Assembly: GCF_001428305.1 (NCBI RefSeq) | Contig: NZ_LMRZ01000008.1 | Span: 1-64,000, forward strand | Origin: Janibacter sp. Soil728 | GTDB lineage: Bacteria; Actinomycetota; Actinomycetes; Actinomycetales; Dermatophilaceae | Reading direction: 5' to 3' | Length of the DNA stretch: 64,000 nt | Part shown: piece by piece, positions 163 to 64,000 of the stretch | How the letters are laid out: each line of letters begins with the position of its first letter | How positions within the stretch are numbered: the first letter of the stretch is position 1 | Notes under the pieces: model-generated | Databases searched by the model: none | The model's input: only the letters and a program-made list of their open reading frames with translations | What the model was told of the DNA's origin: nothing | Translations under genes and position numbers: made by a program

Positions 163-1131
163 ATGAAGATCGGTTCAGAGTCGAGTCAGGTCCTGCGGGT
201 CCACCAGAAGACCTGGGAGGCGCAGGGCGTCACGAGCGTCACCCTGGTCCACCCGCACGGCGAGGCCCTGCCCCGGTGGGAGCCCGGTGCGCACCTGTCG
301 CTGCACCTGCCCAATGGGCTGGTGCGGGAGTACTCGCTGTGCTCCGACCCTGATGACACCTCGCGCTGGACCGTGGCGGTGCTGCGCGTGGAGGACTCCC
401 GTGGTGGCAGCAGCCTGATCCACGACCAGCTGCCGGTCGGGGCCGAGATCCTCGTCGACGGCCCGCGCAACCTCTTCGAGCTCGATGGCGACTCCCCTCG
501 CCACCTGCTCGTGGCGGGCGGCATCGGGATCACGCCGATCGTCGCGATGACGCGCGCGCTCCAGGCGAAGGGGGCCGACTGGCACCTGCTCTACACCGGC
601 CGCTCTCGCGAGGTCATGGCCTTCGTCGACGAGATCAGCGGCCTGCCGGCCGACCGGGTCACCGTCCACGTCGATGACGAGGTGGGTGGCTTCGCCGACA
701 TCTCGGGCATCGTCGGGGGAGTGGATGACGAGACGGTCGTGTACTGCTGCGGCCCCGCGACCCTCATGGAGGCCGTGGAGATCTCGGCGCCGGACGCAGC
801 CCGGCTGCGTCTCGAGCGCTTCCGCGCGCCGGACCCCGTGGTCGACGCCGATGCCGCGCCTGATGGTGGCTTCGATGTCGTCATCAGCAGCAGCGGCGAG
901 CGGATCCCCGTGGGTGCACAGACCTCGATCCTGGACGCCCTCGCCTCGGCCGGTCACGACATGCCCTTCTCCTGCACCGAGGGCATCTGCGGGACCTGCG
1001 AGACCGGAGTGGTCTCCGGGGAGATCGACCACCGCGACTACCTCCTGACGGATGAGGAGAAGGAGTCCGGCACCACGATGTGCATCTGTGTCTCGCGCTG
1101 CCGGGGGCCCGAGCTCGTCCTCGACCTCTGA
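163..1131 (+). CDS. Oxygenase reductase with flavin, NAD and C-terminal [2Fe-2S] domains
   Basis: A 322-aa phthalate-dioxygenase-reductase type protein that would pass electrons from NAD(P)H through flavin and a plant-type [2Fe-2S] cluster to an oxygenase. The flavin-binding RxYS motif is at residues 55-58 and the NAD-binding GGIGITP motif at 119-125, with CGP near 196-198. The C-terminal ferredoxin domain has Cys271, Cys276 and Cys279 (C-x4-C-x2-C), and the fourth ligand is Cys309 (or Cys307). This domain order and length match VanB-like reductases of two-component Rieske oxygenases. The obvious partner is the Rieske protein at 6982-8067. Start chosen at ATG 163; the gap to the upstream gene is 41 bases. 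Confidence 0.9.
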   Translation: MKIGSESSQVLRVHQKTWEAQGVTSVTLVHPHGEALPRWEPGAHLSLHLPNGLVREYSLCSDPDDTSRWTVAVLRVEDSRGGSSLIHDQLPVGAEILVDGPRNLFELDGDSPRHLLVAGGIGITPIVAMTRALQAKGADWHLLYTGRSREVMAFVDEISGLPADRVTVHVDDEVGGFADISGIVGGVDDETVVYCCGPATLMEAVEISAPDAARLRLERFRAPDPVVDADAAPDGGFDVVISSSGERIPVGAQTSILDALASAGHDMPFSCTEGICGTCETGVVSGEIDHRDYLLTDEEKESGTTMCICVSRCRGPELVLDL

Positions 1132-1178
1132 GCCCGATCCATCACCACCCCCTCCCGGACCCGACCAAGGAGCCCTTC

Positions 1179-2186
1179 ATGAACTACTGCGACGAGCCCG
1201 TCGTCACCCTCCGCGGCCTGCGCTCGGTGACCCTGCGCGTGCCCGAGGTCGTGACGGCCAAGGACTTCTACACGCAGGTGTGGGGTCTGGGCGTGAGCGA
1301 GGAGGACGGCAACCGTTTTTGGCTGCGCGGTACCGGTCAGGACCACCACATCCTGCGGCTCGAGGAGGCGGCGAGCAATGCCATGGGTGGCATCTCCTTC
1401 GCGGTCGGGACCCCCGGCGAGGTCGACGAGGCTGCTCGACGTCTGAGCGCGGCGGGCATCCCGCTCCTGCGTGAACCGGGGCGGCACGACGAGGCGGCCG
1501 GTGGGTACTCCCTGGCCTTCGTCGACCCCGAGGGACGGGTCGTCGAGCTGGCCAGCGAGGTCAACGCCGTGGTCCACCAGGATCGCGACGGTTACCCGAG
1601 CGCGCCCCGCCAGCTGGCGCACGTCGTGCTCAACACCGTGGACATCGAGGTGGCCACGCAGTTCTACACCCAGGTCCTCGGGATGCGGATCTCCGACTGG
1701 TCCGAGCGCCAGATGGCCTTCCTGCGGTGCACGCCCAAGCACCACGTCATCGCCTTCAACCAGGCGCCCTGGACCTCGATCAACCACGTCGCCTACGAGC
1801 TGACGAGCATCGATCACTTCATGCGAGGTATCGGCAACCTCAAGGTGCACGGGATCGAGCCGCAGTGGGGCCCGGGCCGCCACGGCCCGGGCAACAACAC
1901 CTTCTCCTACTTCACCGACCCCGCCGGCCTCGTGTGCGAGTACACCTCGGAGGTCGAGGAGATCGACGAGGACAGCTGGCTGTGCCGTACCTGGCGTCGC
2001 ACGCCCGAGCTGTCCGACCAGTGGCGCACCGCCGGTCCGCCGACGCAGGGTGTGCGTTCGGCCATGGCCGGCATCCCCGACGATGGTGCCCGCGGGGCCG
2101 TCGAGGCGACGTCCGGGTACTTCCTCGCGGACGGCCGCGATGGCGTGGAGACGCCCGAGCAGCGCGCTGCCAGCGGCCGGTTCTGA
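1179..2186 (+). CDS. Extradiol ring-cleavage dioxygenase (VOC family, BphC-like)
   Basis: A 335-aa type I extradiol dioxygenase that should open a catechol-like ring next to the hydroxyls using Fe(II). It has two vicinal-oxygen-chelate modules, roughly residues 8-130 and 145-270. The metal triad is visible as His148 (LAHVV), His203 (INHVAYE) and Glu254 (VCEYTSE), spaced as in 2,3-dihydroxybiphenyl 1,2-dioxygenases. The N-terminal module lacks the ligands, as is normal for the family. The start is ATG 1179 with AAGGAG about 6 bases before it; an earlier in-frame ATG at 1080 lies inside the reductase gene and is rejected. The next gene, a hydrolase, starts 1 base after the stop. The exact substrate is unknown. 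Confidence 0.87.
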   Translation: MNYCDEPVVTLRGLRSVTLRVPEVVTAKDFYTQVWGLGVSEEDGNRFWLRGTGQDHHILRLEEAASNAMGGISFAVGTPGEVDEAARRLSAAGIPLLREPGRHDEAAGGYSLAFVDPEGRVVELASEVNAVVHQDRDGYPSAPRQLAHVVLNTVDIEVATQFYTQVLGMRISDWSERQMAFLRCTPKHHVIAFNQAPWTSINHVAYELTSIDHFMRGIGNLKVHGIEPQWGPGRHGPGNNTFSYFTDPAGLVCEYTSEVEEIDEDSWLCRTWRRTPELSDQWRTAGPPTQGVRSAMAGIPDDGARGAVEATSGYFLADGRDGVETPEQRAASGRF

Positions 2187-2187
2187 G

Positions 2188-2997: not shown

Positions 2998-3737
2998 CGC
3001 AGCCTCGACTGGTCGTCATCACCGGCGCCGCGCGCGGACTCGGCCGGGCCATCGCCGAGAGCTTTGCCGGGGACCGGCTCGTCCTGGGCGACGTGCTGGC
3101 GGAGCAGCTCGACGAGACCGCCCGGGCGCTGCGGGCTGGTGGCACGGACGTGCACACCGTGCCCCTGGACATCGCCGACCGCGACTCGGTCCGGGCGCTC
3201 GCCCGAGTCGTCGAGGAGCTCGGCGGCGCGGACGTCCTCGTCAACAACGCCGCCAAGGCCGACGGCGTCGGCGGCGACACCTTCTGGGAGCTCGACGAGG
3301 ACCGCTTCGAGGAGCTGGTCCGGATCAACGTGATGGGCACCTGGATGGTGAGCAAGTACCTCGTCGGTCCGATGCTCGCCCGGGGCGCGGGAGCGATCGT
3401 CAACATCGCCTCCGATGCAGCCTTCTACGGGTCGCCGCGGCTCGTCCACTACGTCGGGTCGAAGGGGGCCGTGCTCGCCATGACCCGCACGATGGCCCGT
3501 GACGCCGGCCCTCACGGGGTGCGGGTCAACGCGGTGGCGCCGGGCCTGACCCGCGTCGACGCCACCGAGGGCGTACCCGCCGACCGCTACGCACTGTACG
3601 AGGACAACCGCGCGCTCAGCCGCGACCCCGTCCCGTCCGACGTCGCCGACGTCGTCCACTTCGTCGCCTCCGAGGCGGCCGGATACATGACGGGCCAGGC
3701 GCTCGTCGTCGACGGTGGCTTCGTCATGCCCACCTGA
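2994..3737 (+). CDS. Classical short-chain dehydrogenase/reductase
   Basis: A 247-aa classical SDR with the full set of motifs: nucleotide-binding TGAARGLG at residues 10-17, VNNAA at 84-88, catalytic Ser140 and the YVGSK pair Tyr153/Lys157. It should carry out NAD(P)-dependent oxidation of an alcohol or dihydrodiol, or reduction of a ketone. Within an oxygenase cluster a cis-dihydrodiol or hydroxy-intermediate dehydrogenase is the natural guess, but the substrate cannot be read from the sequence. The GTG start at 2994 overlaps the hydrolase stop by 4 bases, so the two genes are translationally coupled. Confidence 0.88.
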   Translation: MTQPRLVVITGAARGLGRAIAESFAGDRLVLGDVLAEQLDETARALRAGGTDVHTVPLDIADRDSVRALARVVEELGGADVLVNNAAKADGVGGDTFWELDEDRFEELVRINVMGTWMVSKYLVGPMLARGAGAIVNIASDAAFYGSPRLVHYVGSKGAVLAMTRTMARDAGPHGVRVNAVAPGLTRVDATEGVPADRYALYEDNRALSRDPVPSDVADVVHFVASEAAGYMTGQALVVDGGFVMPT

Positions 3738-4542: not shown

Positions 4543-6236
4543 CCCAGACCTCAGCAGCCCCCCGTGCCGACAGCGTCCAGCAGGCCGGCCCCGCGACCGG
4601 CGGAGACGTCCTCGTCGACGTGATGCGCCGCCACGGCATCACCCACGCCTTCGGCGTCATCAGCATCCACAACCTCCCTCTGGTCGAGGCCGTCTCACGA
4701 GAGCTGACCTTCGTCGAGGTCCGGCACGAGGCGGCCGCGGTCAACGCCGCCGATGCCTTCGCCCGGGTCACCGGGGGAGTGGGTGTCGCCCTGACGAGCA
4801 CCGGGACGGGCGCGGGCAACGCCGCCGGGTCGATGCTCGAGGCCCTCACCGCCGGCTCCCGCGTGCTCCACGTGACCGGACAGGTCGAGGCGGAGTGGAT
4901 CGGCAGCAATCGTGGAGTCATCCACGAGGTCCCCGCCCAGCTGGAGATGCTCACCGCGATCTCGAAGGGAGCGGCCCGGGTCGCCGTCGCCGAGGACTCC
5001 GCGCGGGTCCTCGAGGAGGCGATCGCGATGATCCTCACCGCGCCCCACGGGCCGGTCTCCGTGGAGTGGCCCACCGACCTGCAGTACCTCGCCCGGCCGG
5101 ACGCCCAGGTCGACGGAGACGTCGTCACGGTGCCGAGCCCGCCGGAGGCGCCCCTCGACGAGATCGACGCTGCCGTCGCGCTGCTCACCGGGGCCCGCCG
5201 TCCCGTCCTCTGGCTCGGTGGCGGTGCAGCCGGTGCCGGGGCGCAGGTGCGCGAGCTCGCCCATCGGCTCGGCGCCGGCATCATCACGAGCAACTCCGGC
5301 CGGGGGGTCGTGCCCGAGGACGACGACCTGGTCATCGGCAACTTCGGGTCCACACCGCAGGGAGCCGCGCTGCTCGAGGACGCCGATGTCCTGCTGAGCA
5401 TCGGCACCCACTTCCGCTCCAACGAGACCCGGACCTACTCCCTTCGCCTCCCGGCGCAGCACGTGCAGGTCGACGTCGCCGCCGCGGCCATCGGCCGGGT
5501 CCACCCGGCCACGGTCGGGGTGCAGGGCGACGCCGCGCAGGTGGTCACCGCACTCCTGGAGCGCCTCACGCAGACGGCCACCGAGGACGGCTGGGCCGAC
5601 CGGGCCCGGACCGTGCGACGGGAGGTCCGCGACCACCTCACCGGCTACATCGGTGGCTACGCCGAGGTCTGCGCCGAGCTGCGATCGCAGCTGCCCAGGG
5701 AGTCGGTCATCGCTCGTGACGTGACGATCCCCTCCAGCCAGTGGGGCAACCGGCTGCTGGAGATGTACGCACGGGAGACCAATGTCTTCCCGCTGGGCGG
5801 CGGCATCGGACAGGGCCTGGCGATGGGGATCGGTGCCGCAGTCGCTCGCCCGGAGGTGCCGACCGTCGTGATCGCCGGCGACGGCGGTCTGTCCGTGCAC
5901 CTGGGGGAGCTCGCCTCCCTGAGAGGGACCGGCGCTGCGTGCGTCGTCATCGTCTTCAACGACTCGGGCTACGGCGTGCTGCGCAACATGCAGCAGGCCA
6001 ACGACATGCGTCGTGCGGCCGTCGACCTGTGGACCCCGGACTTCGCGGTGCTCGCCGCGTCGATGGACATGCCCTACTGGCTCACTGGCGCGCCCGGGAC
6101 CTTCGGCCCTGCGCTGCGTGAGGCGATCGCCACCGGCCGCCCGACGGTCATCGAGGTGTCGGTCGCCGACCTTGCGCCGGCCCCCGGTCCCTTCACCCCA
6201 CCCGTACACATCCCCCAGCCGCAGGACGGTGCCTGA
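4539..6236 (+). CDS. Thiamine diphosphate-dependent enzyme (2-oxo acid decarboxylase/lyase family)
   Basis: A 565-aa protein with the three-domain layout of the POX/benzoylformate decarboxylase/acetolactate synthase family. The activating Glu is Glu64 in VRHEAAAVNAAD, and the Mg-ThDP site GDGG starts at about residue 447 and ends at VFND about 27 residues later. It would act on a 2-oxo acid, by decarboxylation or carboligation. In this operon it may process a product of ring cleavage; that is inference. The start at ATG 4539 overlaps the SDR-like stop by 4 bases, and its own stop overlaps the next start (TGATG). The longer frame from 4014 is a shadow of the upstream gene. Confidence 0.85.
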   Translation: MTQTSAAPRADSVQQAGPATGGDVLVDVMRRHGITHAFGVISIHNLPLVEAVSRELTFVEVRHEAAAVNAADAFARVTGGVGVALTSTGTGAGNAAGSMLEALTAGSRVLHVTGQVEAEWIGSNRGVIHEVPAQLEMLTAISKGAARVAVAEDSARVLEEAIAMILTAPHGPVSVEWPTDLQYLARPDAQVDGDVVTVPSPPEAPLDEIDAAVALLTGARRPVLWLGGGAAGAGAQVRELAHRLGAGIITSNSGRGVVPEDDDLVIGNFGSTPQGAALLEDADVLLSIGTHFRSNETRTYSLRLPAQHVQVDVAAAAIGRVHPATVGVQGDAAQVVTALLERLTQTATEDGWADRARTVRREVRDHLTGYIGGYAEVCAELRSQLPRESVIARDVTIPSSQWGNRLLEMYARETNVFPLGGGIGQGLAMGIGAAVARPEVPTVVIAGDGGLSVHLGELASLRGTGAACVVIVFNDSGYGVLRNMQQANDMRRAAVDLWTPDFAVLAASMDMPYWLTGAPGTFGPALREAIATGRPTVIEVSVADLAPAPGPFTPPVHIPQPQDGA

Positions 6237-6981: not shown

Positions 6982-8067
6982 ATGACGACGACCACACAAC
7001 ACCCCGCAGGGGCACCCGCCACGGCGAAGCCCCTCCACGCTGTCGGTACCCGACGCACCCTGGATGCCGACGAGCTGGCGGCCTTCGGCCTCCGGGATCG
7101 CTGGTACCCGATCCTGCCCGGGCACATGCTCGCCGGCGGGTCGATGCAGAAGGTGACGCGCCTCGGTGTCGACTGGCTGCTCTTCCGTGACGCGACCGGC
7201 CGGGTGCGCATGCTCGAGGACCGGTGCCCGCACCGCAGCGCCCCTCTCTCGGCGGGGCAGCACCTGGGCGACCGGGTCGCGTGCCGCTACCACGGCGTCC
7301 AGGTGGACGGCACCGGCACCGTCGTCTCCGTCCCGGGCATGCCCGGCTGTGCCCTGGAGGGCCGTCAGGCGACCGTCTCCCTCGAGGTGGTCGAGGCGGC
7401 GGGAGTGATCTTCGCCTTCGTGCCCCTCACGGACGACAGCGAGCCCACCCCCTTCGTCCTGCCCGACCGACTCGACGACGAGGAGCACTCCCACTTCCTC
7501 AACTACGTGGAGTGGGCCGGCCCGTGGCGCTTCTACATGGACAACGTCCTGGACCCGATGCACGGTGCCTTCCTGCACCGTGACTCGCACTCGATGAACG
7601 CCGGTGGCACCTCGGCGCGCTTCCGCATCCGGGAGACGGAGCGAGGCTTCTTCTTCGAGAAGACCGACCAGCGAGGCAAGAACTTCGACTGGGTCGAGTT
7701 CGTGCGCGGGTCCATGGACCACGTCGACCTCGAGATCCCCTACGGCGACGAGGCCGGCCCGGGCGGGTCCTTCGGCATCGTCGGGATGTCCGTGCCGATC
7801 GATGCGGGCAATGTCGCCGTCTTCCACTGGCGCACCCGCAAGGTGTCCGGCTGGGAGCGCGAGGTCTGGCGCTTCCTCTACCGCACGGCGCTGGAGGAGA
7901 AGCACTGGAACGTCCTCGAGCAGGATCGCGCCGTCCTGGAGATCCTCGCCCACGACGCCGACAGCCATGAGCACCTCTACCAGCACGATCTCGGGGTCTC
8001 GCGCATCCGCCGGATGTACAAGGCGGACGCCAAGGCCCAGGCAAAGATCCTGGCCGGCCAGGCGTGA
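6982..8067 (+). CDS. Rieske non-haem iron oxygenase, alpha subunit
   Basis: A 361-aa ring-hydroxylating or demethylating oxygenase. The Rieske cluster ligands are Cys82, His84, Cys101 and His104 (C-x-H-x16-C-x2-H). The catalytic iron site reads Asp187-x3-Asp191-x2-His194-x4-His199, with Asp315 as the likely third ligand and Asp191 as the bridging residue for electron transfer. No beta-subunit gene is present, so it resembles alpha-only oxygenases of the vanillate demethylase or phthalate type and would use the reductase at 163-1131. Start ATG 6982 lies 2 bases after the upstream stop; the longer frame from 6673 crosses two genes and is rejected. The stop overlaps the next gene (GTGA). Confidence 0.92.
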   Translation: MTTTTQHPAGAPATAKPLHAVGTRRTLDADELAAFGLRDRWYPILPGHMLAGGSMQKVTRLGVDWLLFRDATGRVRMLEDRCPHRSAPLSAGQHLGDRVACRYHGVQVDGTGTVVSVPGMPGCALEGRQATVSLEVVEAAGVIFAFVPLTDDSEPTPFVLPDRLDDEEHSHFLNYVEWAGPWRFYMDNVLDPMHGAFLHRDSHSMNAGGTSARFRIRETERGFFFEKTDQRGKNFDWVEFVRGSMDHVDLEIPYGDEAGPGGSFGIVGMSVPIDAGNVAVFHWRTRKVSGWEREVWRFLYRTALEEKHWNVLEQDRAVLEILAHDADSHEHLYQHDLGVSRIRRMYKADAKAQAKILAGQA

Positions 8068-8818: not shown

Positions 8819-9984
8819 GCGGGGCGCGCAGCATCCTGGTGTCCGGTGCCGGTATCGCCGGCTGTGCCGCTGCGATCGCCCTCGCCGAGCGGGGGCACGC
8901 CATCCGGCTCATCGAGCGGCAGGAGGAGTGGGCCTTCGCGAGCTCGGGGATCTTCCTCTACTCCAACGCCTTGGTGAGCCTCGAGATGCTCGGGGTGCTG
9001 GAGGAGATCCTCGCTGTCGGCTTCGTCGTCCCGGAGGGCCGCAACCGCTATCTCGATCACCACGGCGAGCCCATCGTCACGACCCACTACCCGCCAGCAG
9101 AGGGCGGACGGGTCCCGGCGATCGTCGGGATCAAGCGAGCCGAGCTGCACCGGGTCCTCGCGCACCGGATGTCGCAGGTCGGCGTCGAGGTCGAGCTCGG
9201 GACCACGATCGTCGATCTGGTCGACGGTGCCGAGAGCGTCCGGGTGGTCACCAGCGACGACGAGGTGCGCGTGCACGACCTCGTCGTCTCCTGCGAGGGT
9301 CTGGGCTCCCCCCTTCGCCAGCACGTCGCGCCGGGTGTGCACGCGAGCTACTCCGGGTTCGGGATCTGGCGCAGCGTCCATGCCCGCCCGGGGGACCTCA
9401 CCGACAAGATCATGCAGATGGGCACCGGTACCCGGTTCGGGATCATGCCCATCAGCCACGACCGCCTCTACACCTTCGGCACGGTCAGCGATCCGGGCAA
9501 GACCTGGCACGAGCGCGCCGACTGGCCGCGACTCATGAGGGAAGCCCTGGCGGAGTACGCAGGACCGGCGCGTGCCTTCCTCGACGAGCTCGACGAGACC
9601 AGCGACGTGCTCTACACAGCCGTGGACGAGGTCCTTCTACCCCTGCCCTGGCATCGCGGTCGCGTCGCCCTGATCGGTGACGCTGCGCATGCGGGGACCC
9701 CCTTCATGGGGCAGGGCGGCGCCATGGCTCTCGAGGACGCCCTCGTGCTGGCCGACTGCCTCGAGGACGCTGACCTCGAGGCGGCGCTCACGCTGTTCGA
9801 GGAGATCAGGTACCCGGTGTGCGTCTACGCGCAGGACGTCTCCCGGCGCGTGGGGGAGTCAGGCGCACGCTCGGACGGCAGCGTGACCGAGCGCGAGGCC
9901 TTCGCCGCGGCCGCGCAGGGTGCGGTCGACGAGTTCTACGCGCAGCTGGACCGCCTGCGAGGGCAGCAGGCGCCGGGCCGGTGA
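8815..9984 (+). CDS. FAD-dependent aromatic monooxygenase (salicylate hydroxylase-like)
   Basis: A 389-aa group A flavoprotein monooxygenase. The FAD-binding GAGIAG is at residues 11-16, and the second FAD motif GDAAHAGTPFMGQGG starts at about residue 288. The middle motif, usually DG, appears as SCEG near residues 160-163. Such enzymes hydroxylate phenolic or N-heteroaromatic rings with NAD(P)H and oxygen, so this operon carries two oxygenases. GTG 8815 overlaps the RidA-like stop; the longer frame from 8596 reads back through that gene. It is the last gene of the operon and faces the MarR gene 3 bases away. Confidence 0.88.
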   Translation: MSGARSILVSGAGIAGCAAAIALAERGHAIRLIERQEEWAFASSGIFLYSNALVSLEMLGVLEEILAVGFVVPEGRNRYLDHHGEPIVTTHYPPAEGGRVPAIVGIKRAELHRVLAHRMSQVGVEVELGTTIVDLVDGAESVRVVTSDDEVRVHDLVVSCEGLGSPLRQHVAPGVHASYSGFGIWRSVHARPGDLTDKIMQMGTGTRFGIMPISHDRLYTFGTVSDPGKTWHERADWPRLMREALAEYAGPARAFLDELDETSDVLYTAVDEVLLPLPWHRGRVALIGDAAHAGTPFMGQGGAMALEDALVLADCLEDADLEAALTLFEEIRYPVCVYAQDVSRRVGESGARSDGSVTEREAFAAAAQGAVDEFYAQLDRLRGQQAPGR

Positions 9985-10605: not shown

Positions 10606-10643
10606 CGAAGGGAGTGGCCGCAGTTCACAGCCACCCCCTTCGC
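10606..10643 (-). terminator. Hairpin terminator of the Ltp-repeat gene, built from an inverted CGAAGGG pair
   Basis: CGAAGGGAGTGGC at 10606-10618 pairs with GCCACCCCCTTCG at 10631-10643 (12 of 13 positions), with a 12-base loop. It lies just past the stop of the minus-strand Ltp gene. There is no clear U tract. The two arms are inverted copies of the word that recurs throughout the window. Confidence 0.6.
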
Positions 10644-11397: not shown

Positions 11398-11409
11398 GGT
11401 CGATCGACC
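11398..11409. promoter_or_regulatory. 12-bp palindrome upstream of the histidine kinase gene
   Basis: GGTCGATCGACC is a perfect palindrome 34 bases before the -10 box of the kinase gene, in the 141-base gap between two divergent genes. It could be an operator for the adjacent NarL-type regulator; this is position-based inference only. Confidence 0.35.
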
Positions 11410-11442
11410 GAAGGGGGGACCCGGGCTGTCCCTGCCCGGGCC

Positions 11443-14799: not shown

Positions 14800-15519
14800 T
14801 CATCGTGGGTCGTCCCGCCCCTCGGTGCTGATCTCCTCCATGGCGTCCTGTGCCTCGCCGACGATCCGACGCATGATCTCCTCCGCGAGCTCCGGGCGGC
14901 CGTCGCCCACCTGGGCCGCGACCTCCACGTGCCACTCGATGGCACCCTGCTCGGGGATCTCGGGCATGAGGTCGTGCTCGGTCCTGCCGGTGAGGGCCTC
15001 CGCGACGAAGGGGGCGAAGCCCGCCAGCAGCGCATTGCCGGAGGCCTCCAGCAAGGTCCGGTGGAAATCGATGTCGTGCTGCAGATAGGTGCTCAGGTCA
15101 CCCCGGGGTCCCGTGGTGGCCATCCCGGCGGCTGCGGTGCGCAGCTGCTCGACCTGCTCGGGCGTGGCTCGCTGCGCGGCGAGCCACGCGGCCTGGGGCT
15201 CGACGCCCCGACGCAGCTCGCTGACCTCGCGCAGCTGGGCGAGGCGCTGCGGCCCCTCCAGGCGCCAGTGGATGATCACCGGGCTCAGCGACTCCCATGT
15301 GCTCTCGGGCTGGATCGTCACCCCGACGCGTCGGCGGGAGGTGGCCACGCCGATCGACTCCAGCACCTTGATGACCTCGCGCACGACGGTGCGGGAGACG
15401 CCGTAGCGCCCCTCGAGCTGCTCCATCGAGAACACCTCGCCGGCGACGAGGCGTCCTGAGGTCAGGTCCGACCCGATCCGGCTCAGCACGCTGTGGTGCA
15501 GGCCCCCGCCCAGTGACAT
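14800..15519 (-). CDS. GntR/FCD-family regulator, probable gluconate operon repressor
   Basis: A 239-aa regulator. The N-terminal winged helix covers residues 8-75 (VFSMEQLEGRYGVSRTVVREVIKVLE in pieces) and an all-helical FCD ligand domain covers about 95-225. The FCD metal ligands are likely Asp and His in the HDIDFHRTLLEASGN region and the two later His residues. It is divergent from gntP-gntK, and FCD regulators of this kind often sense gluconate or its phosphate. Repression of the adjacent genes is therefore likely but inferred. The start at ATG 15519 lacks a clear ribosome site; a GAGACT hexamer 7 bases upstream may be a -10 box of a leaderless transcript. Confidence 0.87.
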   Translation of the reverse strand: MSLGGGLHHSVLSRIGSDLTSGRLVAGEVFSMEQLEGRYGVSRTVVREVIKVLESIGVATSRRRVGVTIQPESTWESLSPVIIHWRLEGPQRLAQLREVSELRRGVEPQAAWLAAQRATPEQVEQLRTAAAGMATTGPRGDLSTYLQHDIDFHRTLLEASGNALLAGFAPFVAEALTGRTEHDLMPEIPEQGAIEWHVEVAAQVGDGRPELAEEIMRRIVGEAQDAMEEISTEGRDDPR

Positions 15520-41715: not shown

Positions 41716-41735
41716 CTGCCGCCAGCGAAGGGGGC

Positions 41736-47380: not shown

Positions 47381-49951
47381 ATGAACTCCCCCCGCCGGTC
47401 CATTGATCCGCTTCTTCCTCCCCTGAAGAGTCGTCTCAAGAAGGTGCTGCGGCCCGCGGCGGGCCGAGTCATGCCCACGGTCGCGAGGCTCGCCGGCGCG
47501 AGCGAGGTGGCCCCGAGCCGGGAGGCCGTCCAGCCGAAGGCCGATGCGGGCCGTGCGGCACGGACCCCGACCGTGGACTCCGACCAGCTGGTCCGCGGGG
47601 CATCGCTGGACGAGTCGCTCCTGACCGAGGTCCGTGGCCTGGTCAAGAACGGCGAGCGGGACAAGGCCGTCGCACTCGGCCATGCCCTGCGAGGACGGCC
47701 GGCCACGCGCGACCTGGGCTCTGCCGTGCTCGGTGTCGCCCTGCTCAACAGCTCTGGACCTGACAGGGCCTGGTCGGTCTTCTCCGAGATCGCCGGCACG
47801 CCGGCCTCGGAGCCCGTGGCCAACGAGCTCTACGCGGCTGCCTTCGGTGCGCTGGGCGACGACGCTGCCACGGTCCTCGACGAGGACCTCGCCTCGGGCC
47901 GGTACCGCAGCTGGAGCGGCAACTCCCTGCTGCGTGTCGCCCAGAAGTCCCTCGTCCGGGGCCTGCACGAGCAGGCCAGGGTCCTCATCAAGCAGGCGGA
48001 GGAGATCCCCGAGGGCGCGACGTCCAAGGCGGTCCGCAAGGAGCTCGCGCGCTTGGCCACCTGGCTCCCCGAGGGCACGAAGCGGGCCGAGATCCCGCAG
48101 GTCGCGGGAGCCATCAACTACGGCGTGATCGGCTACGACCAGCCCGACGTCGTCTCGCGCAACATCGGCGACTACATCCAGACGGTGGCCTCGATGGGGC
48201 ACATCGTGCGGCAGCGCAACTTCAGCTTCACCGGCAACGCGGACCTCGTCGACTTCGCCGCCGAGCTGCGGGCGTCGACCAAGACCGAGCGCATCGTCGA
48301 CGGACCATCGGCCACGCTCAACCTCTTCGAGCTCAACCGCGACGGCAACCCCTTCCAGGCCGTCCCCGAGCAGACCTGGGCGGTGACCTTCGGTTGGTTC
48401 ATGCACCACATGTTCGGCCAGGGCTTCGCCATCCCCTTCCACGACAACGTGCGCCCCATCATCCTGTCGGTCTACGTCCGCTTCCCGGAGATGCTGACCC
48501 CTGAGGTCGTCGACTACCTGCGCAAGTACGCACCGATCGGTTGCCGCGACTGGCAGAGCGTCGCCCTGCTGCGCGCTGTCGGGGTCCCCGCCTTCTTCTC
48601 CGGCTGCATGACGACCACCGTCGACACCGTCTTCCGCCGTGATGGCGAGGACACGCGAGACGCCACCATCTACGTCGACTCCCCGCAGACCGGTCCGGGG
48701 GTGTCGCGCACCCAGGTCCAGACCGGCATCCGGGACCTCTCCTTCGTCGAGAACCTGCGGCTCGCCCGCGACTGGGTCTCCCACTACCACCTCGAGTACG
48801 ACAAGGTCATCACCTCCCGCCTGCACTGCAACCTCCCTTCGCGCTCGGTCGGCTCCACGGTCACCTTCCTGCCGAAGAACCGGTCCGACACCCGCTTCGG
48901 CGGCCTGATCGACACCACCGACGAGGACTTCGAGCGGATCCGTCAGGGCATCCTCGACAAGGTCTCGGTCATGCTGCAGACCATCGCCTCGGGGGCCAGC
49001 GAGGACGACGTCTACGCGAAGTGGCGCGAGATCACCGCTCCCGCCATGGCCGAGGCGGACGAGCTGCTGGCCTCCAAGCACCTGCGCGTGCTCGACGCAG
49101 ACACCGTGGCCTCCCTCGTGCCGGCGGCGGGTACCGACATCGCCCAGGCCTCCAGCGCCGACACCATCAACGTCGTCGTGGACGTGCGGCGCGGAGAGCT
49201 GAAGCACCTGCCCAAGCTCATCCGGTCGATCGACGCCCACACCTCGACCCCGGTCGAGGTCTGGCTGGTCGCCGCCGGCGCGACCAGCGCCGAGCGCAAG
49301 AAGCTCCTCGCCCAGGACCTGCCGCTGAGCGTGCACTGGGTCGACCTCGACGCGTCGGCCCTGACCAGCCTGGGCAGCGACCTCAAGCCCGCCGCCCAGC
49401 AGGAGCTGGCCCTCGCCCTGACGGCTGCGGCGCTGCCGCAGGCCCAGCGCGCGGTCTTCCTCACGGCGCCGGCGCTGGTGCGCCAGGACCTCGCCACGCT
49501 GGCGGCCCAGGCGCCCACGGAAGGGTCCCTGGTCACCGCGACCGCGGACCGTCACCGCGGCCGGCAGAGCGGCCTGGCCCTCATCCACCGCGTGTCCAGC
49601 CGGCAGGGCGACGACAACCGCAAGGCCCTCGACTTCCTGATGGCCGCGCACGGCCTGCGCCCGGGTGAGTTCGCGACCTTCGACACCAATGTCATGGTGC
49701 TCGACCTCGAGGCGGCCCGGCGCGACAACCTCAGTGGTCACCTCGCGCCCCTGGTCGTCGACTACGGCATGACCTTCCGCGAGGCGCTCAACCTCGTCGT
49801 CGGGCCCCGACGCACGGATCTCGACGCCGTGTGGAACCACGCCCCCGGGTACGAGGTGCAGGACGAGCCGGCCGTCGTCAACTGGCGGGACACGACCAAG
49901 CCGTGGTCCGGGTCGGTGACCCCCTTCGCTGCGGAGTGGACGGCGAGCTGA
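47381..49951 (+). CDS. Large polysaccharide-modifying fusion: pyruvyltransferase-like plus GT8-like domains
   Basis: An 856-aa cytoplasmic protein with three parts. Residues 1-240 are basic, then helical TPR-like. About 245-540 resemble polysaccharide pyruvyltransferases, with NIGDYIQTVA near 265, FGWFMHHMFG, CRDWQSVALLRAVGVPAFFSGC and TSRLHCNLPS. About 590-856 resemble a family 8 glycosyltransferase (INVVVDVRRGELKHLPKLIRSI ... DTNVMVLDLEAAR ... VNWRDTTKPWSG), but the usual DxD at the end of the FL strand reads FLTAPALV. The role is probably in surface polysaccharide assembly, inferred from the folds. It stands alone, with no other polysaccharide genes in the window. Confidence 0.72.
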   Translation: MNSPRRSIDPLLPPLKSRLKKVLRPAAGRVMPTVARLAGASEVAPSREAVQPKADAGRAARTPTVDSDQLVRGASLDESLLTEVRGLVKNGERDKAVALGHALRGRPATRDLGSAVLGVALLNSSGPDRAWSVFSEIAGTPASEPVANELYAAAFGALGDDAATVLDEDLASGRYRSWSGNSLLRVAQKSLVRGLHEQARVLIKQAEEIPEGATSKAVRKELARLATWLPEGTKRAEIPQVAGAINYGVIGYDQPDVVSRNIGDYIQTVASMGHIVRQRNFSFTGNADLVDFAAELRASTKTERIVDGPSATLNLFELNRDGNPFQAVPEQTWAVTFGWFMHHMFGQGFAIPFHDNVRPIILSVYVRFPEMLTPEVVDYLRKYAPIGCRDWQSVALLRAVGVPAFFSGCMTTTVDTVFRRDGEDTRDATIYVDSPQTGPGVSRTQVQTGIRDLSFVENLRLARDWVSHYHLEYDKVITSRLHCNLPSRSVGSTVTFLPKNRSDTRFGGLIDTTDEDFERIRQGILDKVSVMLQTIASGASEDDVYAKWREITAPAMAEADELLASKHLRVLDADTVASLVPAAGTDIAQASSADTINVVVDVRRGELKHLPKLIRSIDAHTSTPVEVWLVAAGATSAERKKLLAQDLPLSVHWVDLDASALTSLGSDLKPAAQQELALALTAAALPQAQRAVFLTAPALVRQDLATLAAQAPTEGSLVTATADRHRGRQSGLALIHRVSSRQGDDNRKALDFLMAAHGLRPGEFATFDTNVMVLDLEAARRDNLSGHLAPLVVDYGMTFREALNLVVGPRRTDLDAVWNHAPGYEVQDEPAVVNWRDTTKPWSGSVTPFAAEWTAS

Positions 49952-51675: not shown

Positions 51676-51776
51676 ATCTTGCCTGCGGATACTCGTCGTG
51701 GGCACCAGAGGAGCAGCCTTGGGCTCGCCCGTAGACTCACCCCCGGACGCACCCCCTTCGCACCAGGAGATTCCCC

Positions 51777-52735: not shown

Positions 52736-54999
52736 GCATCCTCGACACCGTCACCCAGGCCGCCCAGACCCCTGACGTACAGCAGCCCTGGGCCGACCTC
52801 GGCCTCAAGCAGGACGAGTACGAGCGCATCGTCGCCATCCTCGGGCGTCGCCCCACGAGCGCCGAGCTGGCCATGTACTCGGTCATGTGGTCCGAGCACT
52901 GCAGCTACAAGTCCTCCAAGGTCCACCTGAAGCGCTTCGGCGACCTGCCCTCCGAGACGCCGCTGGGCAAGACCCTCGCCGGCATCGGCGAGAACGCGGG
53001 CGTCATCGACATCGGTCAGGGCTGGGCGGTGACCTTCAAGGTCGAGTCCCACAACCACCCGAGCTATGTCGAGCCCTACCAGGGCGCGGCCACCGGCATC
53101 GGCGGCATCGTCCGCGACATCATGGCGATGGGCGCCCGCCCGATCGCCGTCATGGACCCCCTTCGCTTCGGTGCCATCGACCACCCCGACACCGCCCGGG
53201 TCCTGCCCGGCGTCGTCCGGGGCGTCGGCGGTTACGGCAACTCCCTCGGCCTGCCCAACATCGGTGGCGAGATCGTCTTCGACGAGTGCTACCAGGGCAA
53301 CCCGCTCGTCAACGCGCTGTGCGTCGGGTCGCTGCGCCACGAGGACCTGCACCTGGCCAATGCCACGGGTGCGGGCAACAAGATCGTGCTCTTCGGTGCC
53401 AAGACCGGCGGCGACGGCATCGGTGGCGTCTCGATCCTCGCGTCCGAGACCTTCGACGAGGGCGGCCCCGCCAAGCGCCCCGCCGTGCAGGTCGGCGACC
53501 CCTTCGCGGAGAAGGTGCTCATCGAGTGCTGCCTCGACCTCTACGCCGCAGGCGTCGTCGAGGGCATCCAGGACCTCGGCGGAGCGGGCCTGTCCTGCGC
53601 CACCTCCGAGCTCGCCTCCGCCGGTGACGGCGGCATGAGCATCGAGCTCGACCGCGTCCCGCTGCGCGACTCCACGCTCTCCCCCGAGGAGATCCTGATG
53701 TCGGAGTCGCAGGAGCGGATGATGGCCGTCGTCGCGCCCGACAAGCTCGACGCCTTCCTCGAGATCACCGGCCGCTGGGATGTCGAGGCCGCCGTCCTCG
53801 GTGAGGTCACCGAGGGTGACCGTCTCGTCGTCACCTGGCACGGCGAGACCATCGTCGACGTGCCGCCGCGCTCCGTGGCCCACGACGGCCCGGTCTACGA
53901 GCGTCCGATCGCCCGGCCGGAGTGGCTCGACGCGGTGCAGGCCGACTCGAGCGACTCCCTTCCCCGCCCGAGCGACCTTGGCGCGGACCTGCTGGCGCTG
54001 CTCGCCTCGCCCAACATCTGCGACAAGTCCTGGGTCACCAACCAGTACGACCGCTACGTCCTGGGCAACACCAAGCGCGCCATGCCGCACGACTCGGGCG
54101 TCGTGCGCGTCGACGAGGAGACCGGCCTCGGTGTCGCGCTCTCGACGGACTGCAACGGCCGTTTTGGTCGGCTCGACCCCTACGCCGGTGCGCAGCTGGC
54201 GTTGGCCGAGTCCTATCGCAATGTCGCGACCACCGGCGCCCTGCCGCTGGCCGTCACCGACTGCCTCAACTTCGGCTCGCCCGAGGACCCGGCCGTCATG
54301 TGGCAGTTCCAGCAGGCCATCGGCGGGCTCTTCGACGCCTGCCTCGAGCTGGGCATCCCGGTGACCGGCGGCAATGTCTCCTTCTACAACCAGACCGGTG
54401 AGACGGCGATCCACCCGACGCCTGTCGTCGGCGTGCTCGGTGTCATCGATGATGTCGCGACGGTCGTCTCCTCCGGCTTCGAGACGAAGGGGGAGATCGT
54501 CCTCCTTCTCGGTGAGACGCGGGACGAGCTCGATGGTGGTGAGTGGGCGCACGCGCTGCACGGCCACCTCGGCGGCCAGCCGCCCCGGGTCGACCTCAAG
54601 GCGGAGAAGGCGCTGGCCGACTTCTTCGTCGACGCGGTGCGTCGTGGCGTGCTGACCAGCTCCCACGACCTGTCCGACGGCGGTCTCGCCGTGACGCTGG
54701 CGGAGTCGGCCATGACCGGTGGCATCGGTGCCTCGGTCGACCTGTCGCCGGTCCTCCAGCGCGACGGGGTCGACGCCTTCACCGCGCTGTACTCAGAGTC
54801 CACCGCCCGTGCGCTGGTCACCGTGCGCTCCGAGGCCGACCTGGCCACCGTCGCCGGCATCGCCGAGACCCACGGTGTCCCGATCGCCCGCCTCGGCAGC
54901 ACCGACGGCGACCGGCTCAAGGTCAAGGACGCCTTCGAGGTGGGCCTCGAGGAGATGCGCGCGGCGCACACCGGCACGATGCGGCAGTACTTCGGCTGA
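52732..54999 (+). CDS. purL: Phosphoribosylformylglycinamidine synthase, PurL subunit
   Basis: A 755-aa small-type PurL synthetase. It begins with the conserved [15 protein letters not shown] segment (in pieces, about residues 45-60), followed by the ATP/metal-binding [10 protein letters not shown] (about 103-112) and [13 protein letters not shown]. The second half repeats the AIRS fold, with [12 protein letters not shown] near 545. It completes the FGAM synthase complex with PurS and PurQ. After the stop come the CCTAGG palindromes and a convergent MFS gene. Confidence 0.97.
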
Positions 55000-57521: not shown

Positions 57522-57532
57522 CACCCCCTTCG

Positions 57533-57667: not shown

Positions 57668-58483
57668 TCAGCGCACCCGCCACTGGCCCGGGTCGGGAGC
57701 CGAGGGCGAAGGGCGGGACTCGCCGTCCGTGAGCGGCCGACCGCTGGACGTCCGCTTGGCCAGCGCCGACCCCGCGAGGACGCCTGAGGGGAAGGGCCAG
57801 CGGGCGACCTGCCGCCGGATCTCGTCGAGGTCGAGCGGTCGGTGCGCGGCGACGAGCACGGCATTGCCGTAGCGACGCCCCTTGATCACATCGCGCATGG
57901 CGATCAGCGCCACGCTCCCGCCGGGGCCGAAGCCCGCTCGCAGCCCCGCGACCACATCGGCGAGATGGCGCCAGCCCGGCTCGTCGGGGGAGTTCATCAC
58001 CAGCACCCCGTCGGGGCGCAGCACGCTCGCGGCGTGGGTGAAGAACTCGAGCGTCTGCAGATCGGCGGGGACCCTCCCTTCGTCGAAGGCGTCCACGACC
58101 ACCGCGTGGGCGGAGGCGTCCTTGAGCGCCTCGACACCGGGCCGCCCGAGCTGTGGCCGCACCCGGATGCGGTGACCGCGGGGGAGGGGCAGCTCCTCGC
58201 GGACCGTCGCGGTGAGCGCCTCGTCGGGCTCGAGGACGATCTGTGGCGAGCCCGGCCGGGTGGACTGGACCCAGCGCGGCAGGGTCAGGCCGGCGCCGCC
58301 CACGTGCGTGACGCCGACCGGGTCGGGGCCGGGGAAGACCGCGTCGATCACGGCCGCCATGTGCTGCACGTACTCGAAGACGAGGTGGCCGGGGTCGTCG
58401 ACGTCGACGTGGCTCTGCGGGTGCCCGTCGCGCATCACCGTCACTCCGCCGTGCTCGTCGGGGACCAGCTCCACTGTCGCCAT
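57668..58483 (-). CDS. Spermidine-synthase-like SAM-binding protein
   Basis: A 271-aa class I methyltransferase-fold protein of the fused spermidine synthase (PAPT) family. The binding region includes GVTHVGGAGLTLPRWVQ near residue 62, the acidic end of the next strand in IVLEPDEAL near 85, and VVVDAFDEGRVP near 130. The polyamine-synthase Asp-rich gatekeeping is incomplete, so it may act on something other than putrescine, or not aminopropylate at all. The C-terminal 25 residues are polar. ATG 58483 has GAAGGTG upstream. Function unproven. Confidence 0.8.
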   Translation of the reverse strand: MATVELVPDEHGGVTVMRDGHPQSHVDVDDPGHLVFEYVQHMAAVIDAVFPGPDPVGVTHVGGAGLTLPRWVQSTRPGSPQIVLEPDEALTATVREELPLPRGHRIRVRPQLGRPGVEALKDASAHAVVVDAFDEGRVPADLQTLEFFTHAASVLRPDGVLVMNSPDEPGWRHLADVVAGLRAGFGPGGSVALIAMRDVIKGRRYGNAVLVAAHRPLDLDEIRRQVARWPFPSGVLAGSALAKRTSSGRPLTDGESRPSPSAPDPGQWRVR

Positions 58484-58503: not shown

Positions 58504-58543
58504 CGAAGGGAGGCACGCACCCAACGGTGCGCGCCTCCCTTCG
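58504..58543 (-). terminator. Hairpin terminator of the 5'-nucleotidase gene, built from an inverted CGAAGGGAG pair
   Basis: CGAAGGGAGGC (58504-58514) pairs perfectly with GCCTCCCTTCG (58533-58543), and inside it CGCACC pairs with GGTGCG around CAAC. It lies just past the minus-strand stop at 58565. There is no T tract. The arms are two inverted copies of the recurring word, here in its longest form. Confidence 0.75.
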
Positions 58544-61003: not shown

Positions 61004-61381
61004 GTGGCTGGACGACGTCGGATCCCCGTGGACGAAGGGTGGTCCGCGCTGCACGCGTGGTCAGCCATGCAGGACCGTTCGACGGTGGACCGCGCGACCC
61101 TCGCGACCGCGGTGCGACACACCGTCGCCGAGCTGGCCGACGCTGCCCCCGGCCGCAGCGTGGAGGTGCGGGTTCCTCCCTTCGCCGCAGCGCAGTGCGT
61201 GGCGGGCCCGGTCCACACCCGCGGCACCCCGCCCGCCGTGGTCGAGACCGACCCGCAGACCTGGCTGGAGCTGGCCGTCGGTGACCTCGCCTGGGCGGAC
61301 GGTGTGGCCGAAGGGAGGGTCCGCGTCAGCGGTCAGCGCACGGACCTGTCGGCCCACCTGCCCCTGCGCGAAGGGGGCTGA
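61004..61381 (+). CDS. Sterol-carrier (SCP2)-like family protein
   Basis: A 125-aa protein resembling the actinobacterial sterol-carrier family often found near purF. It begins MAGRRRIPVDEGWSALHAW and has an alpha helix (VRHTVAELADAAPG), a VEVRVPPFAAAQC strand region, then the TDPQTWLELAVGDLAW segment, which matches the SCP2 core. It probably binds a lipid. GTG 61004 is placed 6 bases after GACAAT, a possible -10. Its last 56 bases overlap the convergent oxidoreductase gene. Confidence 0.78.
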   Translation: MAGRRRIPVDEGWSALHAWSAMQDRSTVDRATLATAVRHTVAELADAAPGRSVEVRVPPFAAAQCVAGPVHTRGTPPAVVETDPQTWLELAVGDLAWADGVAEGRVRVSGQRTDLSAHLPLREGG

Positions 61382-62417: not shown

Positions 62418-62427
62418 AACCTACGAT
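62418..62427. promoter_or_regulatory. Overlapping divergent -10 boxes
   Basis: AACCTACGAT reads as TAGGTT on the minus strand (62418-62423, 6 bases from ATG 62411) and as TACGAT on the plus strand (62422-62427, 6 bases from GTG 62434). The two boxes share two bases, so only one polymerase could bind at a time. Confidence 0.5.
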
Positions 62428-62433
62428 GGAGGG

Positions 62434-62667: not shown

Positions 62668-62682
62668 AAGCACCCTCCCTTC

Positions 62683-62731
62683 GCACGACCTCAAGGAGAT
62701 TCGCCCTCGGGTGTGCACGACCTCAAGGAGA
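62683..62731 (+). repeat. 17-bp direct repeat upstream of purF
   Basis: GCACGACCTCAAGGAGA occurs at 62683-62699 and again at 62715-62731, 32 bases apart (about three helical turns). Each copy has the near palindrome CCTCAAGG. The second copy lies 54 bases before the purF start. A regulator that binds both copies on one face of the helix would fit. Confidence 0.6.
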
Positions 62732-62784
62732 GGGGAAGTGGAGGGGGACGCGGGGTAGCACGCGCCTGTGGGAGACTGGTCCCC

Positions 62785-64000
62785 GTGCCACGCGGAGACG
62801 GAAACCTGTCCCATGACCTGCTACCAGGCGAAAAGGGACCTCAAGACGCTTGCGGTGTCTTCGGCGTCTGGGCGCCCGGTGAGGACGTCGCCAAGCTGAC
62901 CTACTACGGGCTGTACGCGCTGCAGCACCGTGGCCAGGAGTCGGCAGGCATCGCGACCTCCAACGGGAGGCAGATCCTCGTCTACAAGGACATGGGTCTG
63001 GTCTCCCAGGTCTTCGACGAGCGGAGCCTGTCCACCCTTCGCGGTCACATCGCCGTCGGCCACTGCCGCTACTCCACGACCGGTGGGTCGACCTGGGAAA
63101 ACGCGCAGCCGACCCTCGGCGGGCACGAGACCGGCACGGTGGCCCTGGCCCACAACGGCAACCTCGTCAACTCCGCCGAGCTGCGTGAGCTCGTCGAGAG
63201 CCACGGCGACGAGATCCCCGGTGACGACGGCAAGATCCGCCGGATCACCGATGGCGAGCTGCGCCGCGGCAACACCTCCGACACGGCTCTGGTCACCGCC
63301 CTCCTGGCGCACGACGAGCACCAGTCGCTCGAGGACGCCGCGATGGACCTGCTGCCCAAGCTGCGCGGCGCCTTCTGCTTCGTCTTCATGAACGAGAACA
63401 CCCTCTACGCGGCCCGCGACCCCCAGGGTCTGCGGCCCCTGGTCATCGGTCGCCTCGAGCGAGGGTGGGTCGTCGCGTCCGAGACCGCGGCCCTGGACAT
63501 CGTCGGTGCCTCCTTCGTCCGCGAGGTCGAGCCCGGCGAGCTGGTCACCATCGACGAGGACGGGCTGCGCACCCAGCAGTTCGCCGAGCCGGCCCGCAAG
63601 GGCTGCGTCTTCGAGTACGTCTACCTCGCCCGCCCCGACACGACGATCAACGGCACGACCGTCCACGAGGCCCGCGTCGAGATGGGCCGCACCCTGGCCC
63701 GGGAGCACCCGGTCGAGGCCGACCTCGTCATCGCGACACCAGAGTCCGGGACCCCTGCGGCGATCGGCTACGCGCAGGAGTCGGGGATCCCCTTCGGCCA
63801 GGGGCTGGTCAAGAACGCCTACGTCGGACGCACCTTCATCCAGCCGAGCCAGACGATCCGTCAGCTCGGCATCCGGCTCAAGCTCAACCCGCTGCACCAC
63901 GTGATCAAGGGCAAGCGCCTGATCATCGTCGACGACTCCATCGTGCGCGGCAACACCCAGCGGGCCGTCGTGCGGATGCTGCGCGAAGCAGGCGCTGCCG
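62785..64000 (+). CDS. purF: Amidophosphoribosyltransferase, 5' part (gene runs off the window)
   Basis: The first 405 residues of PurF, which starts purine synthesis by making phosphoribosylamine from PRPP and glutamine. A 22-residue propeptide precedes Cys23 (DACGVFGVW), the glutaminase nucleophile exposed by self-cleavage. The glutaminase motifs RYSTTGGSTWENAQP and HNGNLVN follow. The PRPP-binding loop IIVDDSIVRGNTQ is near residue 378. GTG 62785 gives the expected propeptide. The gene is open at 64000. It is the last + strand purine gene seen here. Confidence 0.96.
   Translation, partial: MPRGDGNLSHDLLPGEKGPQDACGVFGVWAPGEDVAKLTYYGLYALQHRGQESAGIATSNGRQILVYKDMGLVSQVFDERSLSTLRGHIAVGHCRYSTTGGSTWENAQPTLGGHETGTVALAHNGNLVNSAELRELVESHGDEIPGDDGKIRRITDGELRRGNTSDTALVTALLAHDEHQSLEDAAMDLLPKLRGAFCFVFMNENTLYAARDPQGLRPLVIGRLERGWVVASETAALDIVGASFVREVEPGELVTIDEDGLRTQQFAEPARKGCVFEYVYLARPDTTINGTTVHEARVEMGRTLAREHPVEADLVIATPESGTPAAIGYAQESGIPFGQGLVKNAYVGRTFIQPSQTIRQLGIRLKLNPLHHVIKGKRLIIVDDSIVRGNTQRAVVRMLREAGAA

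Follow-up and report, generated by a model that had tools for sequence, protein, structure and literature searches.

Sequence-tagged DNA uptake has been described for two Gram-negative families (PMC12616744). In the Neisseriaceae, the DNA uptake sequence (DUS) 5′-GCCGTCTGAA-3′ is present, as the 10-mer, about 1900 times in N. meningitidis and N. gonorrhoeae, has dialects between species and is found in dyad-symmetry structures (PMC3630211); its receptor is ComP (PMC3868556) and its core is CTG (PMC12616744). The uptake signal sequences (USSs) of the Pasteurellaceae, nine letters long and highly enriched, comprise a Hin type, 5′-AAGTGCGGT-3′, and an Apl type, and are considered to have evolved independently of DUS (PMC12616744). 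In Micrococcus luteus, natural transformation depends on Tad/Flp pili and involves comEA and comEC (PMC4322843, PMC6370729). Here, we describe a nine-letter word, CGAAGGGRG (R = G or A), that recurs in a stretch of 64,000 nt from Janibacter sp. Soil728 (contig NZ_LMRZ01000008.1, positions 1 to 64,000; henceforth the window), and which is probably a DNA uptake sequence, i.e., a self-identification tag for natural transformation in this genus.

CGAAGGGRG resembles DUS in being short and non-palindromic, in its copy number, in its dialects and in its inverted pairs. It differs in sequence and in its high-G+C actinobacterial host, where the T2SSE matches listed for 16 genomes of the genus include Tad-type ATPases only and no full-length PilB type, and from which no ComP is known, no search having been aimed at ComP itself. 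The Neisseriaceae dialects resemble each other (PMC3630211), whereas CGAAGGGRG and GTATGCCG, the word of related genera, do not, and the DUS core CTG is present in neither CGAAGGGRG nor its complement. With USS it shares the nine letters and the high enrichment but neither sequence nor host. Since its sequence is unrelated, the word is filed with neither DUS nor USS by descent; by function, the best supported reading of the sequence patterns is that it works like both. The genus has comEA, comEC and tad genes, as does M. luteus; a text search of PMC4322843 gave no “uptake sequence”, and the passages of the two M. luteus papers mention no such word.

The window holds 53 exact copies of CGAAGGGRG, 25 on the plus and 28 on the minus strand (Table 1), while 100 dinucleotide shuffles of it gave a mean of 1.63 and a largest count of 6. 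An open k-mer count recovers the word unprompted, as CGAAGGGGG (32 versus 1.55 expected under a third-order Markov model) and CGAAGGGAG (21 versus 1.51). The 7-mer CGAAGGG was counted 76 times on both strands, against 27.4 expected under the same model; the original prediction, made from the letters of the window, had put CGAAGGG and CCCTTCG together at about 67. The excess extends genome-wide: in the complete set of 10 contigs (3,637,840 bases; genome G000), the word occurs in 1158 + 1187 = 2345 copies, about one per 1.5 kb and some 60 times the count of the reversed-letter control (14 + 24 = 38). When synonymous codons were shuffled in 440 genes called from 475 kb of G000, a mean of 30.7 coding copies was obtained (n = 100, sd 4.7, maximum 43), against 233 observed; elsewhere in the genus, 247 were observed versus 31.4 in G009 and 86 versus 13.6 in G001. 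Codon usage therefore does not account for the excess. Genes were called throughout with a simple codon-usage script, which is crude and not a standard gene finder. The recurrence is confirmed as real and strong, and CGAAGGGRG is a non-palindromic word within the 8–12-mer range of the uptake class that is strongly over-represented genome-wide.

Each of 59 stretches from three genomes, the window included, has copies in both orientations; the two copies in a further stretch of G001 (L194) share one strand. A replication-strand bias, which it had been proposed to look for, is absent. In G009, whose closed chromosome starts at dnaA, 183 of 348 sampled copies lie on the putative leading strand (p = 0.36, the terminus being assumed on the far side from dnaA). 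Strand use is thus equal and without replication polarity, as in known uptake sequences.

In the 475 kb of G000, 233 of 304 copies lie wholly within genes. Sense and antisense copies are about equal there (110:123; 119:128 in G009 and 49:37 in G001), the sense copies being almost confined to two of the three frames. Word density rises from 0.54/kb in genes to 1.61/kb outside them and 3.23/kb in the 60 nt that follow stop codons; the corresponding figures are 0.65, 2.87 and 5.78/kb in G009 and 0.23, 0.96 and 2.06/kb in G001, and the enrichment after stops suspected from the window is found in all three genomes. Convergent pairs no more than 60 nt apart number 19 in G000 (2.9 expected), 27 in G009 (4.8) and 3 in G001 (0.6), and several visibly continue into longer stems. 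Divergent pairs are enriched about twofold (6, 10 and 1, respectively), and G001 has five tandem pairs. Abundant in-gene copies, inverted pairs and gene-end copies make up the arrangement known from uptake sequences. Within the window, four of the predicted post-stop copies (found at 20215, 23038, 57524 and 62675) and two predicted 9-mer hairpins (at 10606 and 58504) were found in place. The copy placed after a stop near 41724 is located at 41726, 123 nt past one stop and just ahead of another called stop, and the third hairpin, at 31832, is indeed an inverted repeat, its arms carrying the 7-mer core (CGAAGGGC) and not the 9-mer.

The word is sharply delimited: in G000 and G009, single-letter changes at positions 2–5 occur about as often as expected, or less often. 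Position 8 is G or A, and forms with G at position 8 and A or T at position 9 are two- to eight-fold enriched in both genomes. Upstream in G000, position -2 is G in 74% of the copies and position -1 is a purine in about three quarters; past these two, the sampled genomes have no strongly conserved flank of the kind that marks a longer repeat. In 400 kb of G001, the genus member farthest by PurL (83%), A at position 8 is almost missing (10 versus 110 with G). We also observed a weak C/T-rich bias at +12 to +22 downstream of the word, including T at +21 (G000 and G009 samples), which may stem from hairpin partners or from a second half-site.

Conservation was followed in 14 of 21 called genes around purL, those with five or more members in alignments of up to 16 genus genomes. 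In 822 of 1408 ordered comparisons, a word of one genome is matched by a word in the other, against 33% of other 9-mers being identical; where the spanned peptide is identical, the word is kept in 596 of 807 (74%) versus 53% for other 9-mers. Ordered pairs of related genomes are not independent, and these figures are descriptive. Two genomes, G006 and G012, each retain eight of nine G000 words. All 16 genus genomes carry CGAAGGGRG, in 894–2601 copies each, while none of 42 other relatives exceeds 113. Among 395 other genomes sampled from the phylum, all far below the levels of the genus, none exceeds 251, the maximum being in an 8.6 Mb genome with a control count of 146; a plasmid stretch of Ornithinimicrobium has one copy in the 50 kb examined. 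By PurL, the nearest named neighbour is Pedococcus (73%), in a comparison from which near records may be missing. As far as sampled, CGAAGGGRG is characteristic of this one genus. A literature search, without most subscription journals and all bioRxiv preprints, returned no paper with CGAAGGGRG or its forms.

The genes for DNA uptake, which the original prediction proposed to look for, are present in the genus: ComEC and Tad-type ATPases in 16 of 16 genomes, and ComEA in both genomes checked. In G000, ComEA (SLBB plus helix-hairpin-helix) adjoins ComEC. ComEC alone is no guide to the word, since 22 of 23 other relatives have it too. Of the Tad operons of G000, the one that we call Tad-Y encodes TadA (409 aa), TadB, TadC, a Flp-like protein, TadE, a 151-aa protein and a TadG-like protein; its TadA (TadA-Y) is whole in eight of nine genus genomes examined.

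Related genera have words of their own, unrelated in sequence to CGAAGGGRG. Among the sister genera sampled, GTATGCCG is evident in G018, G019 and G022; no clear word was seen in samples of G016, G017, G020, G021, G023 and G024, although G020 has 939 GTATGCCG copies genome-wide. Named loci with GTATGCCG are from Terrabacter, an Intrasporangiaceae isolate and, weakly, Pedococcus. Over 149 genomes of the family, nine of them from the genus of the window, GTATGCCG reaches hundreds or thousands of copies in many genera (4724 at most in one genome), is at background in the window's genus and in several others, and is gone from single members (G494, G547) of otherwise positive genera. We scored a genome as GTATGCCG-positive at no fewer than 150 copies and four times its control, a threshold that excludes some genomes with more than 1000 copies but a high control (G030, G498); by this measure, 28 of the 47 other family genera represented by a genome of at least 90% completeness carry the word. 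It lacks strand bias (largest deviation 1.8 sd). Its flanks have dialects too, GTATGCCGCG being the form in G022. The loci sampled for GTATGCCG include L204–L207, L211 and L212.

In another family of the order (f19), GGATGCCG is found in ten genomes in 485–4831 copies, 3 to 28 times the control. It is moderately enriched in a few genomes of family f4 (534 versus 67 in G606), and no further strong case was seen among 159 genomes drawn. Named loci are from Microbacterium (L079, L102), with a variant, GGATGCGCG, in Microcella (L072). The lowest of the f19 counts, 485 in G369, is far below those of its listed genus mates. Together with position 8 in G001, GTATGCCG and GGATGCCG amount to lineage-specific dialects. 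In Nocardioides (L033, L034, L037–L039, L042, L045, L057) and Kribbella (L044, L046), GTACGCCG and GTACGACG are several-fold above reversed controls; copies of GTACGCCG are mostly in genes, the Nocardioides signals are weaker than those of GTATGCCG and GGATGCCG, and these could be uptake-like words or codon effects. The literature search for five other words, of the same coverage, returned one of them in a single Ralstonia paper, apparently unrelated by its title.

Because every genus genome has CGAAGGGRG, the association between word and Tad-Y was tested on the sister word, in 122 family genomes at least 90% complete from outside the genus, 72 of which are GTATGCCG-positive. None of the 11 genomes without TadA-Y has GTATGCCG, against 72 of the 111 others (p = 2.7e-5; this and the following association tests are without a phylogenetic model). 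Counted by genus, the figures are 0 of 6 versus 28 of 41 (p = 0.0025). When Tad-Y operons of GTATGCCG-positive and -negative genomes were compared, their genes turned up in both kinds, and no candidate receptor emerged.

Furthermore, TadA-Y is a recurrent insertion site for elements of 4–79 kb. In eight genomes it is in at least two pieces that far apart on the same contig (Table 1), the break being near residue 204–213 or 229–234, at or just past the ATP-binding loop (201–208), in seven of them and near residue 141 in G528. Large serine recombinases adjoin a break in G022, G544, G557 and G564, and the G555 insert contains an IS110-type transposase gene. By comparison, PurL is split in none of 22 matches, and one RecC of 60 appears as two pieces that share an open frame. 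Mobile elements are known to insert into the competence genes comYC, comM, comFA and comK (PMC4774983). In G009, the Tad-Y island (L222:10625-19768, i.e., G009:C1:2232625-2241768) has genes for an Eco29kI-like restriction endonuclease and a C5 DNA methylase, and the Tad genes beside it are missing or partial.

Words are scarce in the sampled islands, as is expected of uptake sequences in mobile DNA. Six islands in such Tad genes contain 12 words versus 65.6 expected; five were scored for GTATGCCG and one (G009) for CGAAGGGRG, two were sampled in part, and the word-less G456 and G564, as well as G528, are left out of the count. For two of the six the deficit is not clear when each is taken singly (G544, p = 0.24; G557, p = 0.047). 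In G000, the stretch L151 (G000:C4:1-20000), picked as the poorest, has two words versus 12.9 expected. L151 is low in G+C and encodes an rve-type integrase, a cation efflux protein and a P-type ATPase; part of it resembles plasmid-borne cadmium-resistance genes.

From these patterns we infer how the word might act. Free double-stranded DNA bearing it would be bound preferentially by a component of the Tad/Flp pilus or by ComEA, and would then pass through ComEC and be recombined into the chromosome. If tagged DNA were imported more often than untagged DNA, new copies would spread and old ones would be kept by molecular drive; this could lead to thousands of strand-symmetric copies in core genes, to pairs tolerated in terminator hairpins and to few copies in newly arrived mobile DNA. 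A wider proposal, to which we would give even chances, is that actinomycetes have a third, independently evolved set of DUS dialects (CGAAGGGRG, GTATGCCG, GGATGCCG and perhaps GTACGCCG-like words in Nocardioides) that would be read by the Tad/Flp pilus and not by a classical type IV pilus, that mobile elements would attack this system by insertion into TadA, and that the genus of the window would have switched to an unrelated word.

Several observations weigh against the uptake reading or parts of it. The link between word and Tad rests on GTATGCCG and not on CGAAGGGRG, and 39 genomes with TadA-Y or pieces of it fail the GTATGCCG threshold. The GTATGCCG-rich G472 and G516 keep only remnants of TadA-Y; they were not scored as lacking it, a choice made after seeing them, and scoring them as absent gives 2 of 13 with GTATGCCG (p = 0.0016). 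G009, the richest genus genome in the word, has a wrecked Tad-Y operon, with TadA broken, only fragments of TadC and of pilins, and no TadB match in the surrounding 60 kb: either the loss is recent or Tad-Y is unneeded, and judged from G009 it is possibly not necessary. Nor is the machinery sufficient, since the word-less G017 and G024 keep the whole Tad-Y operon and ComEC (G017 by tblastn). The splitting of TadA-Y (8 of 133) is not significantly more frequent than that of PurL (0 of 22; p = 0.60) or of RecC (0 of 60; p = 0.06, borderline). In short samples of three sister genomes, GTATGCCG forms few inverted pairs, and in two of the three it is not enriched after stops. Within the genus, G003 retains none of five comparable G000 coding words, and in G001 near-miss words at positions 6–7 are up to two- to three-fold enriched, which, with position 8, we regard as a small dialect difference.

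As a whole, the com and Tad genes and the pattern of the word fit DNA uptake better than they fit a nucleoid site, Chi, a terminator or a segregation signal, and this is the best supported interpretation. The counts, the lack of polarity, the enrichment after stops and in pairs, the restriction to one genus and the com/tad genes all support what the original prediction had proposed. Its own alternative, a word for chromosome maintenance, loses weight because the copies show no polarity and relatives show a pattern of dialects.

The main rivals are a nucleoid site and Chi. The former would be a chromosome-organising site of a genus-specific DNA-binding protein, with no role in uptake. The even chromosomal spread, the low density in the sampled new DNA and the genus restriction would suit it, but differing words in related genera and losses from single genomes would be odd for an essential architectural site, convergent hairpin pairs are enriched, and GTATGCCG associates with TadA-Y; we find this explanation unlikely.

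Chi sites of RecBCD/AddAB are short, often G-rich, over-represented and non-palindromic, and in E. coli their orientation is biased along the direction of replication. CGAAGGGRG, G-rich and non-palindromic, might accordingly regulate RecBCD in the genus, protecting ends and loading RecA at breaks. The absence of genes does not argue against this, since RecC, the only RecBCD subunit searched for, is in nine of nine genus genomes tested, which counts against the uptake reading. However, the word has neither replication-strand nor coding-strand bias, is enriched in inverted hairpin pairs and after stops, and is denser than Chi. RecC-positive relatives such as G021, G024, G025 and G028 are without it. 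The sister word is plentiful in 49 genomes that gave no RecC match; it is present in 23 of 44 genomes with RecC versus 49 of 78 without (p = 0.34) and, by genus, in 6 of 16 versus 22 of 31 (p = 0.03, in the negative direction). With no positive link to RecC, GTATGCCG is not a RecBCD Chi, and for CGAAGGGRG we hold a Chi role to be slightly less likely still than a nucleoid one.

A transcription terminator element, i.e., the arm of an RNA hairpin that also turns up elsewhere, would explain the inverted pairs and the copies after stops; it is very improbable and largely refuted, as most copies are wholly coding, on both strands and conserved. FtsK-orienting polar sequences (KOPS) and SpoIIIE recognition sequences (SRS) are oriented toward the terminus, and a guiding or otherwise replication-oriented word of this kind, short, G-rich and abundant as CGAAGGGRG is, has next to no chance here: it is refuted by the lack of polarity (leading-strand share 0.53). 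The same holds for an artefact of composition, codon pairs or a repeat element, for which the high G+C and the frame preference of sense copies could be cited; it is refuted in the main by the Markov, synonymous-shuffle and reversed-word controls, all exceeded, and it also sits ill with the lack of a strong flank beyond -2/-1 and with relatives that are without the word. HIP1-type words are palindromes, which CGAAGGGRG is not.

If confirmed, the DNA uptake reading would add a third uptake-sequence system, a Gram-positive one, and would imply three or more separate origins of self-recognition in bacterial sex. It would provide a marker of transformation, legible in genome sequences, for a phylum in which transformation is little studied, would suggest that Tad pili bear a new class of DNA receptor and could open harmless strains to easier genetic study. 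Given an apparent dialect switch and losses within genera, the origin and replacement of uptake words become directly testable.

Table 1. Copies of CGAAGGGRG in the window (exact matches, except the repeat at 31832..31870; gene context from crude calls) and split TadA-Y loci in other genomes.
Feature	Position	Strand or parts	Context
CGAAGGGGG	566..574	+	in gene
CGAAGGGGG	3460..3468	+	in gene
CGAAGGGAG	4963..4971	+	in gene
CGAAGGGAG	5438..5446	-	in gene
CGAAGGGGG	7448..7456	-	in gene
CGAAGGGGG	9309..9317	-	in gene
Inverted pair, hairpin	10606..10642	10606-10614 +, 10634-10642 -	intergenic, 26 nt from stop of 10669-11313 (-)
CGAAGGGGG	11409..11417	+	intergenic
CGAAGGGGG	15006..15014	+	in gene
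CGAAGGGGG	15989..15997	-	in gene
CGAAGGGAG	19217..19225	-	in gene
CGAAGGGGG	20033..20041	+	in gene
CGAAGGGGG	20215..20223	+	16 nt past stop of 18156-20198
CGAAGGGGG	20668..20676	-	in gene
CGAAGGGAG	21845..21853	+	in gene
CGAAGGGGG	23038..23046	-	10 nt past stop of 20334-23027
Inverted 9-mer pair	26125..26145	26125-26133 +, 26137-26145 -	in gene
CGAAGGGAG	28089..28097	-	in gene
CGAAGGGGG	28122..28130	-	in gene
CGAAGGGGG	28303..28311	-	in gene
CGAAGGGGG	28749..28757	+	in gene
Inverted 9-mer pair	29636..29654	29636-29644 +, 29646-29654 -	in gene
CGAAGGGAG	31478..31486	-	in gene
Long inverted repeat, 7-mer core (CGAAGGGC), not 9-mer	31832..31870		
CGAAGGGAG	34234..34242	-	39 nt past stop of 32905-34194
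CGAAGGGAG	34293..34301	+	intergenic
CGAAGGGGG	35360..35368	+	in gene
CGAAGGGAG	39148..39156	+	in gene
CGAAGGGGG	40725..40733	-	in gene
CGAAGGGAG	40824..40832	+	in gene
CGAAGGGAG	41085..41093	-	in gene
CGAAGGGGG	41726..41734	+	intergenic, 1 nt before stop of called gene 41736-42095 (-)
CGAAGGGGG	41997..42005	+	in called gene
CGAAGGGGG	43996..44004	-	in gene
CGAAGGGGG	45887..45895	+	in gene
CGAAGGGGG	46151..46159	-	in gene
CGAAGGGGG	46259..46267	+	in gene
CGAAGGGAG	46923..46931	+	in gene
CGAAGGGAG	48833..48841	-	in gene
CGAAGGGGG	49920..49928	-	in gene
CGAAGGGGG	51752..51760	-	intergenic
CGAAGGGGG	53157..53165	-	in purL
CGAAGGGGG	54485..54493	+	in purL
CGAAGGGGG	57524..57532	-	2 nt past stop of 56856-57521
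CGAAGGGAG	58074..58082	-	in gene
Inverted pair, hairpin	58504..58543	58504-58512 +, 58535-58543 -	intergenic, 21 nt from stop of 58565-60877 (-)
CGAAGGGAG	61176..61184	-	in gene
CGAAGGGAG	61309..61317	+	in gene
CGAAGGGGG	61369..61377	+	in gene
CGAAGGGAG	62675..62683	-	7 nt past stop of 62410-62667
Split TadA-Y	G022:C43	L224, L225	
Split TadA-Y	G456:C23	L229, L230	
Split TadA-Y	G528:C2		
Split TadA-Y	G544:C6	L226	
Split TadA-Y	G555:C1	L228	
Split TadA-Y	G557:C11	L234-L236	
Split TadA-Y	G562:C1	L231-L233	
Split TadA-Y	G564:C1	L227	

A search of plasmids for TadA-Y gave only matches below 60% identity. Other repeated words were seen in passing. In the G001 sample (L154–L173), AACTGCCCG (65 versus 2.2), ATTTGCCCG and TAACCCGATA are repeated words unrelated to CGAAGGGRG and perhaps parts of small repeat elements. 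In the window, two close pairs (42540-42640 and 55020-55115) make up four occurrences of a palindrome around CCCTAGGG; ACCCTAGGGT palindromes are strongly enriched in G009, with 36 strand hits of CCCTAGGG versus 1.1 in 400 kb.

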